Shown in pieces: positions 13,334 through 49,919 of a stretch of 49,931 bases of DNA. The notes beneath the pieces are model-generated. The model was given only the letters and a program-made list of their open reading frames with translations. It was not told where the DNA came from and made no database searches. The stretch spans positions 1 through 49,931 of IMG/VR virus record IMGVR_UViG_3300030117_001273; one strand, 5' to 3'. The stretch's first letter is position 1. Each line of letters starts with the position of its first letter. A program made the position numbers and the translations under genes. This DNA is from a virus.

Positions 13334-13496
13334 AATTATGATGACAATAGATGTTGATGGAGAGGAATATCATGTTCCATCAGACAATAAAGTAGACGAA
13401 GAATTTGAAGACTATATAAAAGACTTTATACATGAAATTGACGGTGTTAAAATTAGACACATTAAAATAATACAGGAGAACAAAGATGAAGAGTAA
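13317..13496 (+). CDS. Hypothetical 59-aa acidic protein
   Basis: I place the start at ATG 13317, overlapping DUF3310 by 17 bases; ATG 13338 is also possible. The protein is acidic, with MTIDVDGEEYHVPSD followed by EEFEDYIKDFIHEIDGVKI, a pattern I associate with small conserved phage proteins of unknown function. It overlaps the ribonucleotide reductase gene by 11 bases. The region before the reductase start carries an AGGAG ribosome site inside this gene. Confidence 0.55.
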   Translation: MTIKLKIMMTIDVDGEEYHVPSDNKVDEEFEDYIKDFIHEIDGVKIRHIKIIQENKDEE

Positions 13497-15417
13497 TTAC
13501 TTACCCACAGACTACCAAAATTTTATAGCTCTTTCTAGATATGCTAGATGGAGAGAGGATGAACAAAGAAGAGAAACGTGGTCGGAAACTGTGGACAGGT
13601 ATTTTAATTATATGGTAAATCATTTAAAAATTAATCATAACTATACTATAACTAAAGCATTGAAAGAAAAATTAACTGATAGTGTTATGTCTCTTGGTGT
13701 TATGCCAAGCATGAGAGCATTAATGACATCAGGGGTAGCTTTAGATAGATGTCATGTTGCAGGATATAATTGTAGTTACATACCTGTGGATAGTCCTCGT
13801 TCTTTTGATGAATGTATGTATATACTTATGAATGGCACAGGTGTAGGATTCTCTGTTGAGAGAGAAAACGTAGATAAACTACCCATAGTCAATGAACACT
13901 TTGAAGAAAGCACAACAGTAATAACTGTAGCAGATAGTAGACAAGGTTGGTGTAGAGCATTACGTGAATTAATTGCTATGTTGTATGTAGGGCAGATTCC
14001 TAAATGGGATATATCAGGAGTTAGACCTGCAGGTGCTAGACTAAAAACGTTTGGTGGTAGAGCATCAGGACCTGCTCCACTAGAAGAACTGTTTGACTTT
14101 TGTATTGAAAAATTTAAGAATGCAAGAAACAGAAGATTATTTCCGATTGAGTGCCACGATATTATGTGCAAGATAGGAGAAGTTGTAGTTGTAGGTGGTG
14201 TCAGACGTTCTGCACTTATATCTTTATCCAACTTAGGAGATGACCAAATGCGTCATGCTAAGTCAGGTCAATGGTGGGAGAATGAAGGACAAAGAGCATT
14301 AGCCAATAACTCTGTAGCATTCAAAGGTAAGCCTGAAATGGGTACATTTATGAGAGAATGGACATCCTTATATGAATCTAAATCAGGTGAACGTGGTATA
14401 TTTAATCGTAAAGCAGCTAAAGTAAAAGCGTCAGAGAATGGTAGAAGGGATACAAATTATGAATTTGGTTGTAATCCTTGTAGTGAAATTATACTTAGAC
14501 CCTATCAATTCTGTAATTTAACAGAGGTCGTGGCTCGTGCAACTGATGGAATAGAAGCACTAAAAGAAAAGGTACGTATGGCTACTATACTTGGCACATT
14601 CCAATCTACACTTACAGATTTTAAATATCTACGTAAAGTATGGAAAGAAAATACTGAAGAAGAAAGATTACTAGGAGTTTCCCTAACAGGTATTCTTGAT
14701 TGTCCTGTTCTAAATAATGTTTATTATGAATTAGAAGATGTATTAATAGAACTAAAGAAAGTAGCAGTAGAAACAAATAAAAAGATTGCTAAAGATTTAG
14801 GCATATCACAGTCAACTGCTATAACTTGTATCAAACCAAGTGGTACAGTTAGTCAATTAGTTGACAGTGCTAGTGGTATACATGCGAGACATAATCCATT
14901 CTACATTAGAACTGTACGTGGAGATAACAAAGACCCTATTACACAATTTATGACAGAAGCAGGTATTCCTGCAGAACCTGATGTTATGAAACCTGATAGC
15001 ACGACTGTCTTTAGTTTTCCTATGAAATCACCTGCAGGTGCTATAACTAGGACAAAGATGACTGCTATAGAGCAACTAAATTATTGGCTCTTGTTTCAAA
15101 GGCATTGGTGTGAGCATAAACCATCCGTTACTATTTCTGTAAAAGAAGATGAATGGATGGAAGTAGGTGCTTGGGTGTACAAAAACTTTGATGAGGTATC
15201 AGGTATATCCTTTTTACCTTTCAGTGAGCATACCTATAAACAAGCACCTTATCAAGACATAGATGAAAATCAGTATAAAAAACTTATGGATTCTATGCCA
15301 AAGTCTATTGATTGGAGTAAATTACAAGACTTTGAAAAAGAAGATACCACAAGTGGTAGCAAAGAACTTGCGTGTACTGCAGGTGCATGTGAGATAGTTG
15401 ACATTGAAGCTAGTTAA
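13486..15417 (+). CDS. nrdJ: Adenosylcobalamin-dependent (class II) ribonucleotide reductase
   Basis: Reduces ribonucleotides to deoxyribonucleotides for phage DNA, using vitamin B12 to start the radical. At 643 residues it resembles the monomeric RTPR type, which acts on triphosphates. The radical-site set is NPCSE (Asn330, Cys332, Glu334) with the disulfide partners Cys96 and Cys343. GTGVGFSVE and KPSGTVSQLVDSASG form the barrel and substrate loop. The C-terminal shuttle cysteines are Cys630 and Cys635 in ACTAGACE. No thioredoxin or glutaredoxin gene is recognised here, so host reductants are likely used. It overlaps the previous gene by 11 bases. Confidence 0.93.
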   Translation: MKSNYLPTDYQNFIALSRYARWREDEQRRETWSETVDRYFNYMVNHLKINHNYTITKALKEKLTDSVMSLGVMPSMRALMTSGVALDRCHVAGYNCSYIPVDSPRSFDECMYILMNGTGVGFSVERENVDKLPIVNEHFEESTTVITVADSRQGWCRALRELIAMLYVGQIPKWDISGVRPAGARLKTFGGRASGPAPLEELFDFCIEKFKNARNRRLFPIECHDIMCKIGEVVVVGGVRRSALISLSNLGDDQMRHAKSGQWWENEGQRALANNSVAFKGKPEMGTFMREWTSLYESKSGERGIFNRKAAKVKASENGRRDTNYEFGCNPCSEIILRPYQFCNLTEVVARATDGIEALKEKVRMATILGTFQSTLTDFKYLRKVWKENTEEERLLGVSLTGILDCPVLNNVYYELEDVLIELKKVAVETNKKIAKDLGISQSTAITCIKPSGTVSQLVDSASGIHARHNPFYIRTVRGDNKDPITQFMTEAGIPAEPDVMKPDSTTVFSFPMKSPAGAITRTKMTAIEQLNYWLLFQRHWCEHKPSVTISVKEDEWMEVGAWVYKNFDEVSGISFLPFSEHTYKQAPYQDIDENQYKKLMDSMPKSIDWSKLQDFEKEDTTSGSKELACTAGACEIVDIEAS

Positions 15418-45844: not shown

Positions 45845-46274
45845 TGTCCTTCTTTGGTGGTAATATCATAACACCACCTGATGCCTCTACCTGAACTTTC
45901 TCTGTTTTGGTTAACCCTACTCTATCAAGTAATTCTTTAGCAGCAGATAGCCTGTCTCTTAATCCGAGTTGTGTAGGGTCATCAACTCCACTAACCATAG
46001 CTACTGCTGCCTTCGGAGCATTCCTACTCATGAATATTTGAGTAGCTTCCATAATTTCATCTTTCATTGATGCAACAATAGAGGAAGTTGCAGAGTGCTC
46101 AGAATAACCTGCTAATAGTTTAGCTTGTACAACATCACCATTAGCTTCATCAAATAAAACTTCTAAAAACTTTTTTTGTCTATCTGTTAATTCTCTTTTT
46201 TTCAATGTGGTATTCCTTGTATTAAAACTCTGTCTATAAGACGTTTTGCTCTGTTGGGTGTCTGTTTGTACCAA
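45837..46274 (-). CDS. terS: Terminase small subunit
   Basis: A 145-residue DNA-recognition subunit. The core ELTDRQKKFLEVLFDEANGD, then LAGYSEHSATS, is the small-terminase helix-turn-helix, in which the motif DxxxAxxxAGYS is typical. A helical oligomerisation region follows (LRDRLSAAKELLDRVGLTK). The N-terminal 25 residues are polar and probably flexible. It marks phage DNA for the large subunit. The gene overlaps lysozyme by 73 bases, so the true start may be one of the later codons. Confidence 0.8.
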   Translation of the reverse strand: MVQTDTQQSKTSYRQSFNTRNTTLKKRELTDRQKKFLEVLFDEANGDVVQAKLLAGYSEHSATSSIVASMKDEIMEATQIFMSRNAPKAAVAMVSGVDDPTQLGLRDRLSAAKELLDRVGLTKTEKVQVEASGGVMILPPKKDNG

Positions 46275-46657
46275 CGTGAGTCTTCCATCTGATTTGCCAT
46301 CTCTTGATAGTCTTCCTTCTCTACGGCAGCAATCATCTTCTTAAATTTACTTAAACGAGGTTTGCCAAGTTGAAATGACATATTGATTAGTACGTGTTGT
46401 ATTTCGTCAGGTAGTTTATCAAAAGCACTAAATATAGTTTGGCAGTCTTGTATTGCAACTTGCACATCATTTAAAAACCAATCTTGTACTTGTTGTTCAG
46501 GTACAGGATATCCTATAGGTTTACCATAGTAATCTGCATCCCATTCTGTTATAAGATGTCCAATCCCCCCGGTCAAATGATTTTCTGAGCAATGGTACAA
46601 TTCATACTTTACACCCTCATCTGCTTCAATTTCTTCTCTGAGTGTACTGATGTTCAT
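46202..46657 (-). CDS. Endolysin, T4-type lysozyme (GH24)
   Basis: A 151-residue muramidase that cleaves the glycan chain of peptidoglycan at lysis. It aligns with T4 lysozyme: Glu14 in DEG equals Glu11, Thr29 equals Thr26, and GGIGHL follows. Asp20 of T4 is replaced by Cys23, giving the E-8-C-5-T form that is known to be active in other phage lysozymes. C-terminal elements such as LINMSFQLGKPRLSKFKKM and DSRWYKQTPNRAKRL match the family. No signal sequence is present, so the 3TM holin at 47053 probably releases it. A perfect promoter lies upstream. Confidence 0.9.
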   Translation of the reverse strand: MNISTLREEIEADEGVKYELYHCSENHLTGGIGHLITEWDADYYGKPIGYPVPEQQVQDWFLNDVQVAIQDCQTIFSAFDKLPDEIQHVLINMSFQLGKPRLSKFKKMIAAVEKEDYQEMANQMEDSRWYKQTPNRAKRLIDRVLIQGIPH

Positions 46658-46786: not shown

Positions 46787-47053
46787 CTATTGATAATATG
46801 GAGTGACTGTGGAATTAGGATCTTCTATACCTTCAACTGCTAACACTTCAGGTATATAATGTTTTAACATATTTTCTATTCCCATTTTTAATGTTTGTGT
46901 TGACATGGCACATCCACTACAAGCACCACTTAAAAATATTGTAGCTACACCATCTTTAAATGATTGTAACTTAACGTGACCACCATGCATCTGAACGCTA
47001 GGTAGTATATAGTCTTCTATTATTTTATTTATTGCAGATACTGTGTCTTGCAT
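46787..47053 (-). CDS. NifU-like Fe-S cluster scaffold protein
   Basis: An 88-residue single NifU C-terminal domain, the part that holds a labile Fe-S cluster and passes it to target proteins. The helix-strand pattern IIEDYILPSVQMHGGHVKLQ and the CxxC in SGACSGCAMS (Cys45, Cys48) are the family core. Host Nfu proteins usually carry an extra domain, so this is the minimal form. It may help mature Fe-S enzymes in the infected cell. The gene overlaps the holin gene stop-to-start and precedes lysozyme. Confidence 0.88.
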   Translation of the reverse strand: MQDTVSAINKIIEDYILPSVQMHGGHVKLQSFKDGVATIFLSGACSGCAMSTQTLKMGIENMLKHYIPEVLAVEGIEDPNSTVTPYYQ

Positions 47054-47445
47054 TATCTCTTCTTTAACATCTTTGCTGCTTGACCTACACCTTTAATACC
47101 AAAGGATGCAGATATAGCTATATATAATAGGTACTGATACCAATCAGGCAAAGTTGCTAGTATTTCAAAACCACTTTTAACGTATTCTCTCATTCCGGGA
47201 ATGAAGACTAAAATTGCAGGAGCTAATAACACAACTAACGCAAATTCGTCTTTCCAAGAATCCACTGTTGCATCTGCCATCTTACCTTCCCACTCAACCT
47301 GACCTGTTGCAACCTTTTCAGCAACAGTAGCACGAGCTTTTGCCTCTGCAACTTTAGCTTGTCCATCAGCTTTTGTTTTTTCTATTTTGTTTTGAAACCA
47401 TGTTCCTGCGAGGTTTGCTATTGGTCCTATCAACGCTTGTATCAC
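47053..47445 (-). CDS. 3TM-type holin
   Basis: A 130-residue membrane protein like the GTA_holin_3TM family, which forms lesions in the inner membrane so that lysozyme reaches peptidoglycan. DSWKDEF before the first strong transmembrane helix (68-84) is the family hallmark. A second helix is at 103-120, and a hydrophobic start (residues 2-17) gives the third. An Ala/Lys helix links them. The GTG start at 47445 has CAGGAGAG upstream. Lysozyme lies two genes downstream, consistent with a lysis cassette. Confidence 0.75.
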   Translation of the reverse strand: MIQALIGPIANLAGTWFQNKIEKTKADGQAKVAEAKARATVAEKVATGQVEWEGKMADATVDSWKDEFALVVLLAPAILVFIPGMREYVKSGFEILATLPDWYQYLLYIAISASFGIKGVGQAAKMLKKR

Positions 47446-47762: not shown

Positions 47763-47879
47763 CTACATACATAAATCTTCATACTTAGTTGTATGAAGTC
47801 TGTGTTGTGCTAATTCTCTCGCTTTAGCAATACCTATTTTATTATTATACTTTAGTAAGTTTATTAACCAATTTATCAT
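47763..47879 (-). CDS. Hypothetical 38-aa protein
   Basis: A short frame from ATG 47879 to TAG 47763-47765, overlapping the end of the DUF1289 gene by 35 bases. The first ten residues are hydrophobic (MINWLINLLKY) and the rest is a charged helix (IAKARELAQHRLHTTKYE). The pattern resembles tiny marine-phage proteins with an N-terminal WLINxLKY stretch. The ribosome site is weak, so this is a moderate call. It ends 10 bases before the DUF5872 start. Confidence 0.4.
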   Translation of the reverse strand: MINWLINLLKYNNKIGIAKARELAQHRLHTTKYEDLCM

Positions 47880-47964
47880 ATGCTTCTTTAATCTCTTCTA
47901 TAGTTCTTTTACACCCTATACAAACATTATCTTTAAGTTTGCATACTCCAATACAGGGACTCAT
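47845..47964 (-). CDS. DUF1289-like four-cysteine mini-protein
   Basis: A 39-residue frame from ATG 47964, overlapping the upstream stop as ATGA, to TAA 47845-47847. The start MSPCIGVCKLKDNVCIGCKR has the DUF1289 pattern (SPCIGVCxL, then CxGCxRT), with four Cys likely to bind zinc or an Fe-S cluster. The tail is a charged helix. DUF1289 members occur in many proteobacteria with uncertain function, and this is the minimal motif. Confidence 0.65.
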   Translation of the reverse strand: MSPCIGVCKLKDNVCIGCKRTIEEIKEAYDKLVNKLTKV

Positions 47965-48722
47965 TTTTTACCTATACTTCTTAAACTTTCCATTACATCA
48001 TCAATATTTGGCTCATCTTGTCCGGGATTATAAATACATTTATATTTTTTAGGACAGTTTGGTTCATACATTAATGTATATGTTTTATTTCCACCCTGAT
48101 ATATACAAGCCTGTTTATCCGTATACTTTGATCTAAGTATTTTTTTTAATCTACAAGTTGTATACTTCTTGTCTATTATTTTACCTTGATTACGTAACTG
48201 TTGTTTAGTTAATGGTTTAGGTACATATGTATATCCATCTGCATGTGCTCTACTTGTGAACATACTAGCTAATAATATTAAAAAGCCACCTATCGCTACC
48301 ACTAAAAGTAACCACCCAATACCTTCACTTAACTGTCTTCTTAATTGTTGTTGTTTGTATATTGTCTGTTGTCTTTGTTTTCTTATCTGACCTTCCATCT
48401 GTAGTAGTTCATCATAGGCTTGAGGACCATGAGTCAGGTTTAAAAACATTTTTAATTCATATCTTTGTTCTTCAAGTTTCTTTTTAGCTGTGTATGCAGC
48501 CATCGCTGCTTCTTCAATAGAATCAGCTTTAAAAAGTTTACCAAAAAGAGGTGGGTTCTTAGCCTGTTTTTCAGCATTGTCAATATCTGATACTGCTCCC
48601 ATCCATCTGCCTATGTCTCCTGACATTTGTTCAATATCACGACCTACAGCGAATCCCTGCTTAATCGCATTAAATGCCTTTGATGCGACACCTACAGCTA
48701 GTGATATAGTTACTGGGTCCAT
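47961..48722 (-). CDS. Membrane-anchored coiled-coil protein with exported cysteine-rich tail
   Basis: A 253-residue protein. The N-terminal 30 residues are mildly hydrophobic (VTISLAVGVASKAFNAIKQG). Residues 75-132 are a Lys/Glu/Gln-rich helix. One transmembrane helix follows at 136-154, with a signal-peptidase-like AHA at 159-161. The last 90 residues have four Cys and many Tyr (CRLKKILRSKYTDKQAC, NCPKKYKC), suited to the periplasm. It could be a lysis or envelope protein; I do not recognise the family. The ATG follows AAGGAAATAATA. Confidence 0.6.
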   Translation of the reverse strand: MDPVTISLAVGVASKAFNAIKQGFAVGRDIEQMSGDIGRWMGAVSDIDNAEKQAKNPPLFGKLFKADSIEEAAMAAYTAKKKLEEQRYELKMFLNLTHGPQAYDELLQMEGQIRKQRQQTIYKQQQLRRQLSEGIGWLLLVVAIGGFLILLASMFTSRAHADGYTYVPKPLTKQQLRNQGKIIDKKYTTCRLKKILRSKYTDKQACIYQGGNKTYTLMYEPNCPKKYKCIYNPGQDEPNIDDVMESLRSIGKK

Positions 48723-48724
48723 TA

Positions 48725-48901
48725 TTATTTCCTTATGGGTTTACAATATGCAGTTATGCGTTGACCTCCATTTTCTGTGGGTATAGTTGGTTGGTTATGC
48801 AGTCTTTCTGCAAAATAAAGACATCTATCTAAATCTTCAAATCTTTGGGTTTGGTTTATTATTCTTGTGTCTATCATAAACACGAGAAGAAATTCTATCA
48901 T
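48725..48901 (-). CDS. Conserved small marine-phage protein, 58 aa
   Basis: A 58-residue frame from ATG 48901 (TAAATG, just after the Cys-rich gene) to TAA 48725-48727. The middle RFEDLDRCLYFAERLHNQPT and the end GGQRITAYCKP match a small protein I associate with marine phages. The two Cys and aromatic residues suggest a compact fold. Function is unknown. It ends two bases before the next gene starts, so the series is one operon. Confidence 0.6.
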   Translation of the reverse strand: MIEFLLVFMIDTRIINQTQRFEDLDRCLYFAERLHNQPTIPTENGGQRITAYCKPIRK

Positions 48902-49015
48902 TTATACAGGCACACCCTGCACTTCTTGTTCCTCGTGGCAATCACAAGTACACTCGTCACAGTCACAGTCGTAACATTCACAAGTAGGACATCTATTTTT
49001 TCTTTTTTCGTTCAT
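48902..49015 (-). CDS. Eight-cysteine metallothionein-like mini-protein
   Basis: A 37-residue frame from ATG 49015 (with AAGAGAG upstream) to TAA 48902-48904. After a basic start, residues 9-27 read CPTCECYDCDCDECTCDCH: eight Cys at 9, 12, 14, 17, 19, 22, 24 and 26, with four Asp, two Glu and one His. Such density suggests binding of several metal ions. It is not a match to a family I know; an acidic Cys-rich zinc or copper sink is the natural reading. It overlaps the upstream gene by 23 bases. Confidence 0.6.
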   Translation of the reverse strand: MNEKRKNRCPTCECYDCDCDECTCDCHEEQEVQGVPV

Positions 49016-49295
49016 GTGCTCTCTTTAATTGTTCTTTAGCTTTTTTAAATATGGCAACAACTTCTGTTTTGCCCATCACTTTAGCTCTTTGTTCAGCGAC
49101 AGTAAGTATTTGTATCTTTCTCGCATATGGCTTATTAATTTTCTTAACTTTTGCAACCGTAGCTTTGGCATCTGCAACTGTAGCAAATTTAATGCTAACC
49201 GTGTCTTTAGGGTTCTCATCCGTATATAAACGTCTGCCACTTCCTTTAGGTTTTTTACCTGTGCCAACTTTAGGGTCTTTCTTTTTATTAGACAC
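48993..49295 (-). CDS. Conserved basic phage protein, 100 aa
   Basis: A 100-residue basic protein with the recognisable series DPKVGTGKKPKGSGRRLYTD, ENPKDTVSIKFATVADA and RAKVMGKTEVVAIFKKAKEQ, which I associate with marine phages. The C terminus is a poly-Lys run. It looks like a small alpha/beta domain with basic ends, so a nucleic-acid-binding or virion role is plausible, but the function is unknown. The start shares a base with the upstream stop. Confidence 0.65.
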   Translation of the reverse strand: MSNKKKDPKVGTGKKPKGSGRRLYTDENPKDTVSIKFATVADAKATVAKVKKINKPYARKIQILTVAEQRAKVMGKTEVVAIFKKAKEQLKRAHERKKKK

Positions 49296-49582
49296 TACCC
49301 TCTATAGCCTCCACCTTTTGCTTTGTATTGTTTGGCTAACATCTGTGCTTTTCTTGCACTCCATTGACCGGGTGAACCTCCCTTACCACCTGCTTTGATA
49401 CGATTGAATAAGTTTTTACGCATTGTAGGTTTAGTGTAGTTACCTGCCTTATTAACAGTGCTACCACCTTTGTTTAGCTTAATAGCAGATAAAGTTTTAG
49501 CTTGACCTGCGTGAGCTTTACTAGCTTTTCTTAATTTTCCTGCTACTTTTTTTATTGTTGCTTTTGCTTTTTTTACTGCCAC
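49295..49582 (-). CDS. Conserved very basic phage protein
   Basis: I favour GTG 49582 because GAGGATAAC lies at proper spacing; ATG 49594 would add four residues. The 95-residue product is Lys/Ala-rich at the start (VKKAKATIKKVAGKLRKA). It then has conserved pieces NKGGSTVNKAGNYTKPTMRK and AGGKGGSPGQWSARKAQMLA, ending KAKGGGYRG. It is histone-like in composition. It may bind DNA or sit in the virion; the function is not known. It overlaps the previous gene by up to 74 bases. Confidence 0.6.
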   Translation of the reverse strand: MAVKKAKATIKKVAGKLRKASKAHAGQAKTLSAIKLNKGGSTVNKAGNYTKPTMRKNLFNRIKAGGKGGSPGQWSARKAQMLAKQYKAKGGGYRG

Positions 49583-49919
49583 TGTTATCCTCATATAAAT
49601 TGTTAAATGTTGTAAAAGGGTCTAAATAGGACTCATGTGCTTCTGCAGAGTGTATCCACTGTGAAGGAGCAAAATCAGGAGCACCTTCTCCTGTAACCCA
49701 TAATGCAGGACTTGTTGCCCTGACTCTATTATTTGGTAGTGCAACTATGTTACCTGTCCATTCACCTGCATCTAACAAATACATCACATGTGATTGTTTA
49801 TGTTGTGCAGGATCGTCTGCTATATCACTCTCGGTGTAATCAACTGTAAATAAGTACTTCGCAGTATAAAATGCATTGTCTATTTTACAGAGCCATGGGG
49901 AAGAACTGACCCTATCCAT
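49521..49919 (-). CDS. Hypothetical protein near the window edge
   Basis: A protein of at least 132 residues, reading open to the window edge upstream of ATG 49919, so the true start may lie outside. Residues 1-110 form a compact domain with Trp and His (YLLDAGEWTGNIVALPNN, LWVTGEGAPDFAPSQWIHSA). The last 20 are Lys/Ser-rich. I associate its core with conserved marine-phage proteins of unknown role. It leads the visible part of the minus-strand arm. Confidence 0.55.
   Translation of the reverse strand: MDRVSSSPWLCKIDNAFYTAKYLFTVDYTESDIADDPAQHKQSHVMYLLDAGEWTGNIVALPNNRVRATSPALWVTGEGAPDFAPSQWIHSAEAHESYLDPFTTFNNLYEDNSGSKKSKSNNKKSSRKIKKS

Follow-up and report, generated by a model that had tools for sequence, protein, structure and literature searches.

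Many uncultured HMO-2011-type phages share a strongly conserved, unannotated gene, down to 28 codons long, whose product is a small cysteine-rich peptide. The reading put forward here, tentatively and a little short of an even chance, is that the product is a metallothionein-like micropeptide with a metal core of seven Cys and one His, which would work with the dn58 protein, encoded by the next gene, in the phage lysis module. The narrower claim that the core binds metal seems probable. HMO-2011-type phages have been described as a marine viral group that is both dominant and widely distributed (PMC9038755).

The peptide gene and its surroundings

The window, meaning the whole stretch of DNA that was analysed, is IMGVR_UViG_3300030117_001273, 1 to 49,931, a virus contig of 49,931 bases. 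Its terminase is 81% identical to that of Roseobacter phage CRP-1, 79% to that of Puniceispirillum phage HMO-2011 and 78% to that of CRP-345, and the DNA polymerase shares 64% identity with that of HMO-2011. Because of these identities, the virus was taken to be an HMO-2011-type phage. The features used below are the following.

48902..49015, minus strand: gene for the cysteine-rich micropeptide, 37 aa, ATG start and TAA stop, supported by homologues and purifying selection
48935..48991, minus strand: conserved 19-residue core of the peptide, supported by at least 166 distinct homologous DNAs and by exception scans of IMG/VR
48993..49295, minus strand: 100-aa gene of unknown function, upstream of the peptide gene, with a 23-nt overlap
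48725..48901, minus strand: dn58, the immediate downstream gene, a 58-aa beta-beta-alpha-beta protein, described from AlphaFold2, alignment and loci counts
47961..48722, minus strand: mem, a 253-aa protein and third gene of the unit (122/123 loci)
47845-47964, minus strand: DUF1289 protein, 39 aa with four Cys (PF06945, E 2.1e-11)
47053..47445, minus strand: holin-like gene without a Pfam match; the analogous gene of locus L488 is PF11351, GTA_holin_3TM
46787-47053, minus strand: NifU C-terminal-domain (NfuA-like) protein of the lysis operon (PF01106, E 1.7e-24)
46202..46657, minus strand: phage lysozyme (PF00959), in the same operon as the peptide gene
49521-49919, minus strand: match to PHROG 3704, which carries the label 'ferredoxin' (E 1.5e-7)
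13486-15417, plus strand: ribonucleotide reductase-like gene

The product of 49521-49919 has no cluster-type Cys motif, and the PHROG label is probably wrong here. The ribonucleotide reductase-like protein is probably of class II, judged by eye from a C-terminal Cys pair.

The minus strand of 48902-49015 translates to MNEKRKNRCPTCECYDCDCDECTCDCHEEQEVQGVPV, followed by a stop. A preliminary description of this DNA, which did not give the strand, had pointed to a 37-residue peptide with eight Cys, six acidic residues and one His in 19 positions, and the translation agrees: the 19-mer at 48935-48991 holds 8 Cys, 6 Asp/Glu and 1 His, and the core is acidic as described. It follows the pattern C-x-T-C-x-C-Y-x-C-D-(C)-x-x-C-x-C-x-C-H, and the whole peptide, with 8 Cys in 37 aa, contains CxC and CxxC motifs and alternates Glu or Asp with Cys. 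The placement in an operon with other small proteins was also borne out, as the peptide gene shares its first 23 nt, ATG included, with the end of the 100-aa gene upstream (48993-49295), and its stop codon abuts the dn58 ATG at 48901. The same minus-strand region holds the lysozyme, terminase, portal and structural genes, which are presumed to be late genes.

Homologues and evidence for coding

The preliminary description held this to be a genuine small gene missed by annotation, and proposed to look in marine viral metagenomes for the Cys spacing in an intact frame, to measure selection on the homologues, and to give the idea up if related phages had frameshifts or stops. IMG/VR was scanned by the eight-Cys spacing alone, and the acidic-core family was among the matches listed, besides low-complexity repeats. 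Most of the listed matches to this Cys-only viral pattern were repeats, and only the acidic family was counted. Altogether at least 166 distinct homologous DNAs and at least 89 distinct 19-residue cores were recovered from IMG/VR, and more than 100 independent marine viral contigs have homologues in the same frame. Family members are 28-60 residues long, the shortest being the 28-aa peptide of L525.

Two further sets of loci were fetched independently of the motif, 80 via the upstream gene and 80 via dn58, with a few shared, and the core was called in them by a position-weight scan. The core is carried by 21/80 of the loci fetched by the upstream gene and by 62/80 of those fetched by dn58, the latter count not being a population frequency, as that set was seeded from the window's own dn58. 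The frame is open in every one of these, and no stop or frameshift was found in the core across both 80-locus sets, so that the outcome named beforehand as a refutation did not occur. Among the motif-independent loci without the core, the gene is cleanly absent in those read; in L161 and L164, dn58 is present and the peptide is cleanly missing. In one locus, L452, the first half of the core is lost to a 39-nt in-frame deletion, which retains C14, C16, C18, H19 and the frame. The L452 deletion (around 220-381) may be real or may be an assembly slip.

The 55 distinct cores that were fetched without use of the Cys pattern give a pN/pS of 0.09, with variation at 19/19 third codon positions and at 3/19 second positions. 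The ratio and the codon-position pattern together indicate that the gene codes for protein and is under strong purifying selection, so that both the search and the selection measurement came out in favour of the gene, and comparison of the homologous sequences confirms the ORF as real and coding, not a chance one. In the opposite reading there is no protein-level feature, and the ORF would only reflect an overlapping frame or an RNA element. Its appeal is that the ORF overlaps genes on both sides and that its tails are largely out-of-frame readings of those genes, but the substitutions track the Cys frame, broken copies were not found in the neighbour-fetched loci, and the core sits between the neighbouring genes, not inside them, which makes this reading extremely improbable.

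Conservation within the core

Ten residues are invariant over the 166 distinct DNAs: C1, T3, C4, C6, Y7, C9, C14, C16, C18 and H19. The fifth Cys, at core position 11, is replaced in 51/166 by T, V, I, K, P, E, A, D, M or S. Asp10 is fixed in 115/115 eight-Cys forms and is N, E or V in 9/51 seven-Cys forms. In every locus seen, the core is single and of fixed spacing. The eight-Cys cluster of the preliminary description therefore stands as to its density and falls as an invariant feature, since Cys11 is dispensable and what is strict is seven Cys and His19, together with Thr3 and Tyr7.

Since Cys, Thr, Tyr or His was fixed in some of the patterns used for fetching, all of IMG/VR was scanned directly for exceptions. 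No contig was found with codon 19 starting with A, G or T, with codon 7 starting with A, C or G, or with codon 3 starting with C, G or T, in scans that covered these codon classes only and whose patterns each still demanded most of the other core residues. The seven Cys and His19, being the invariant residues of donor type, would make up a donor set sufficient for two tetrahedral sites. This putative ligand set of 7 Cys and His is sharper than the one first described, and it is testable.

Tails and overlaps

The flanks of the core do not form conserved units. At the N-terminus, the basic stretch of the peptide comes from reading the Lys-rich 3' end of the upstream gene in a different frame (in the window, CATGAACGAAAAAAGAAAAAATAG). 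With another upstream neighbour, the N-terminus can be just M-D-K ahead of the first Cys (L201, L470). At the other end, the dn58 ATG lies 4-7 nt past the invariant His codon in 33/128 loci. The NDRV C-terminal tail was considered as a functional element and rejected, as this tail is dn58 read out of frame. The variable or acidic tails and the basic N-terminus are thus largely by-products of overlap, and since the tails are largely neighbour genes in another frame, the core is the functional unit.

In L167, L219, L220, L418 and about 29 other loci, the Cys gene extends about 50-95 nt into dn58, and one DNA there encodes two proteins. A frameshift fusion product is conceivable at these overlap loci.

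Linkage to dn58, mem and the lysis genes

The peptide is tightly linked to dn58 and to lysis genes. In 128/128 loci dn58 is the next gene, and in 157/160 once the seven-Cys forms are added, the three peptides without an adjacent dn58 being those of L488, L525 and L542. L525 does have a dn58-like gene close by (hhalign probability 94), and L488 may have one too (probability only 35). When loci with the same upstream gene are compared, dn58 is present in 14/14 of those with the Cys gene versus 2/38 of those without it (p = 7e-11). An intact core is missing from 18/80 dn58 loci, and because many dn58 loci lack the peptide, dn58 does not need it and the peptide is an accessory. In compact phage genomes, the linkage to dn58 can be a matter of inheritance and not of function.

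AlphaFold2 predicts a confident beta-beta-alpha-beta fold for dn58 (pLDDT 90), and the alignment has Cys27 and Cys53 conserved. A search with this fold gave no significant PDB match; it resembles only uncharacterised viral proteins. The third gene, mem, is found within 1.5 kb downstream of the Cys gene in 122/123 loci. It has one apparent transmembrane segment, identified by eye, a conserved N-terminal domain that is common to Roseobacter CRP phages, and a C-terminal Cys-containing domain. This last domain, about 90 aa long and containing several Cys, is optional, and many relatives lack it.

A holin-like or lysozyme gene lies on the same strand within 3 kb in 37 of the 38 loci that have 3 kb on both sides. 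The unit has two placements, one upstream of lysozyme and terminase, which is that of the window, and one between the lysozyme and tail genes, and in the more distant phages L525 and L488 the peptide gene follows a holin gene. The DUF1289 gene is downstream in about half of the loci with the Cys gene, and is also found in L525.

A general linkage to the NifU-domain gene was considered and rejected, that gene being present in 9/104 loci with the Cys gene and in 4/38 of the loci with full flanks. These counts bear on the reading in which the peptide would be an Fe-S peptide, a cluster ligand or carrier acting with the NifU-domain and DUF1289 genes. Both genes are in the operon of the window, and some genomes of HMO-2011-type phages are reported to carry iscU and erpA (PMC9038755). 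Against this, the NifU gene is rare in the family, and the peptide has neither a ferredoxin-type motif nor a match to an Fe-S family, so an Fe-S role is very unlikely.

Searches for relatives

The preliminary description knew of no family for the peptide, and the searches of Pfam, NCBIfam, PHROG and PDB likewise gave no meaningful match. Forty family members searched against Pfam at E<=10 had no match except one to Kelch_1 at 0.14, 40 members searched against PHROG had one stray match at E 4.9, the window protein had none in NCBIfam, and the peptide had none in PDB by sequence or by profile, all with short Cys-rich queries, which have low power in profile searches. In named phages, tblastn with the peptide (low-complexity filter on) returned nothing, the dn58 search found none, and a search with the 291-bp DNA gave nothing beyond a chance match of 31 nt. 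The corresponding regions of HTVC033P, HMO-2011, CRP-1, CRP-345, MEP402, HTVC034P, HTVC115P and Lederberg were read directly, and the peptide is absent from them. A search of 84,980 prokaryote genomes for the spacing with Tyr7 gave 102 matches; the ones inspected were low-complexity Cys/Tyr repeats and included no family member. Within the sampled sets, these comparisons show the peptide to be phage-restricted. In the open-licence literature, no report of a phage-encoded metallothionein was found, and none of this peptide.

AlphaFold2 gave no confident fold for the Cys peptide without ligand (pLDDT 57), which fits a metal-folded and a disordered peptide alike. This result is neutral because AlphaFold2 cannot model metal clusters.

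Possible role

In the proposed mechanism, HMO-2011-type marine phages probably produce the peptide in the late phase of infection, and the 19-residue core of the peptide would fold around metal via seven Cys and one His. The simplest arrangement would be two tetrahedral sites, C1/C4/C6/C9 and C14/C16/C18/H19, with the optional eighth Cys at position 11 as a further ligand. Zn2+ would be more likely than Cu+ because His is invariant and the surround is acidic. The structured acidic core would act with the dn58 product and probably bind it, as part of an accessory unit, Cys peptide-dn58-mem, inside the lysis module. Metal binding, the two-site stoichiometry, zinc, the contact with dn58 and the late-infection or lysis role are all things we infer, and a role in lysis or late infection is suggested by gene position alone.

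The peptide could instead be a generic metallothionein-like buffer, which takes up Zn or Cu from dismantled host metalloproteins or shields late assembly from toxic metal. The Cys density of 8/37, the CxC and CxxC motifs and the Glu/Asp-Cys alternation recall metallothioneins and phytochelatins, and one Cys, Cys11, can be lost. A buffer would however be expected to drift at non-ligand positions and in copy and length, whereas Thr3 and Tyr7 are invariant and the core is single, fixed in spacing and tied to dn58. Such a buffer is unlikely, though it is the strongest of the competing readings. The preliminary description had suggested a host-directed metal sink, and the strictness of Thr3 and Tyr7 and the pairing with dn58 argue for a specific structured partner instead of a generic sink; neither host-directed action nor the metal carrier for phage enzymes that it also proposed found any support.

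The many vicinal Cys also bring to mind a redox or thiol device, in which the cluster would switch between thiols and disulfides, for example to reduce the phage ribonucleotide reductase or to set the time of disulfide formation near lysis. The phage does encode a ribonucleotide reductase-like protein (13486-15417), and dn58 has two invariant Cys. Yet the peptide has no thioredoxin or glutaredoxin fold, no CxxC active-site context and no family match, and a redox device leaves His19 and the exact spacing unexplained, which makes it improbable.

To return to the metal core working with dn58, a specific structured partner is favoured over a generic sink by the fixed spacing, by two invariant non-ligand residues, Thr3 and Tyr7, and by a gene pairing with dn58 that is nearly obligate. 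In its fullest form, the core would be a two-metal (7 Cys and 1 His), phage-only micro-domain of 19 residues that is the specific structured partner of dn58 and acts in late infection or in the timing of lysis of dominant ocean phages; this full form is unlikely. If it is true, the core would rank among the smallest known metal-folded protein modules. Should the peptide bind metal, the family would be metallothionein-like and viral, its natural ligand set would be unusually clean, with an eighth Cys that is naturally dispensable, it could be tested cheaply with synthetic peptides, and it would tie ocean trace-metal chemistry to phage late gene function.

Comparison with known systems

The metallothioneins compared were bacterial SmtA/BmtA, mycobacterial MymT and the fungal Neurospora Cu-metallothionein. 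Like them, the peptide is very short, has about 20% or more Cys with CxC and CxxC motifs, and is not predicted to fold in the absence of metal; its 8 Cys in 37 aa agree with the metallothionein-like Cys density first noted. Metallothioneins as a class hold d10 metal ions in thiolate clusters, and the bacterial ones also use His. The peptide differs in having no match to Pfam metallothionein models or PDB chains, in a strongly acidic core with invariant Tyr and Thr and only 7 Cys strictly required, and in the lysis-operon context of its gene. Aromatics are absent or rare in the metallothionein class and an invariant one is atypical of its classical members, whereas Tyr7 is present in 166/166. 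By the tests run, the family is metallothionein-like in composition and outside the known metallothionein families.

Phytochelatins and other (Glu-Cys)n peptides also alternate acidic residues with Cys, but the phage peptide is ribosomally encoded and not gamma-linked, with fixed spacing and invariant His and Tyr. The DUF1289 protein at 47845-47964 is likewise a tiny Cys protein of the same operon, but it has another motif and its own Pfam family, PF06945, to which the peptide shows no match.

In tetrahedral zinc sites, Cys4 and Cys3His are typical sets of ligands. Zinc ribbons and knuckles therefore resemble the peptide in its putative Cys4 and Cys3His sets, and differ from it in that the peptide has no separate knuckles and no hydrophobic core, and carries all of its eight putative donors within 19 residues.
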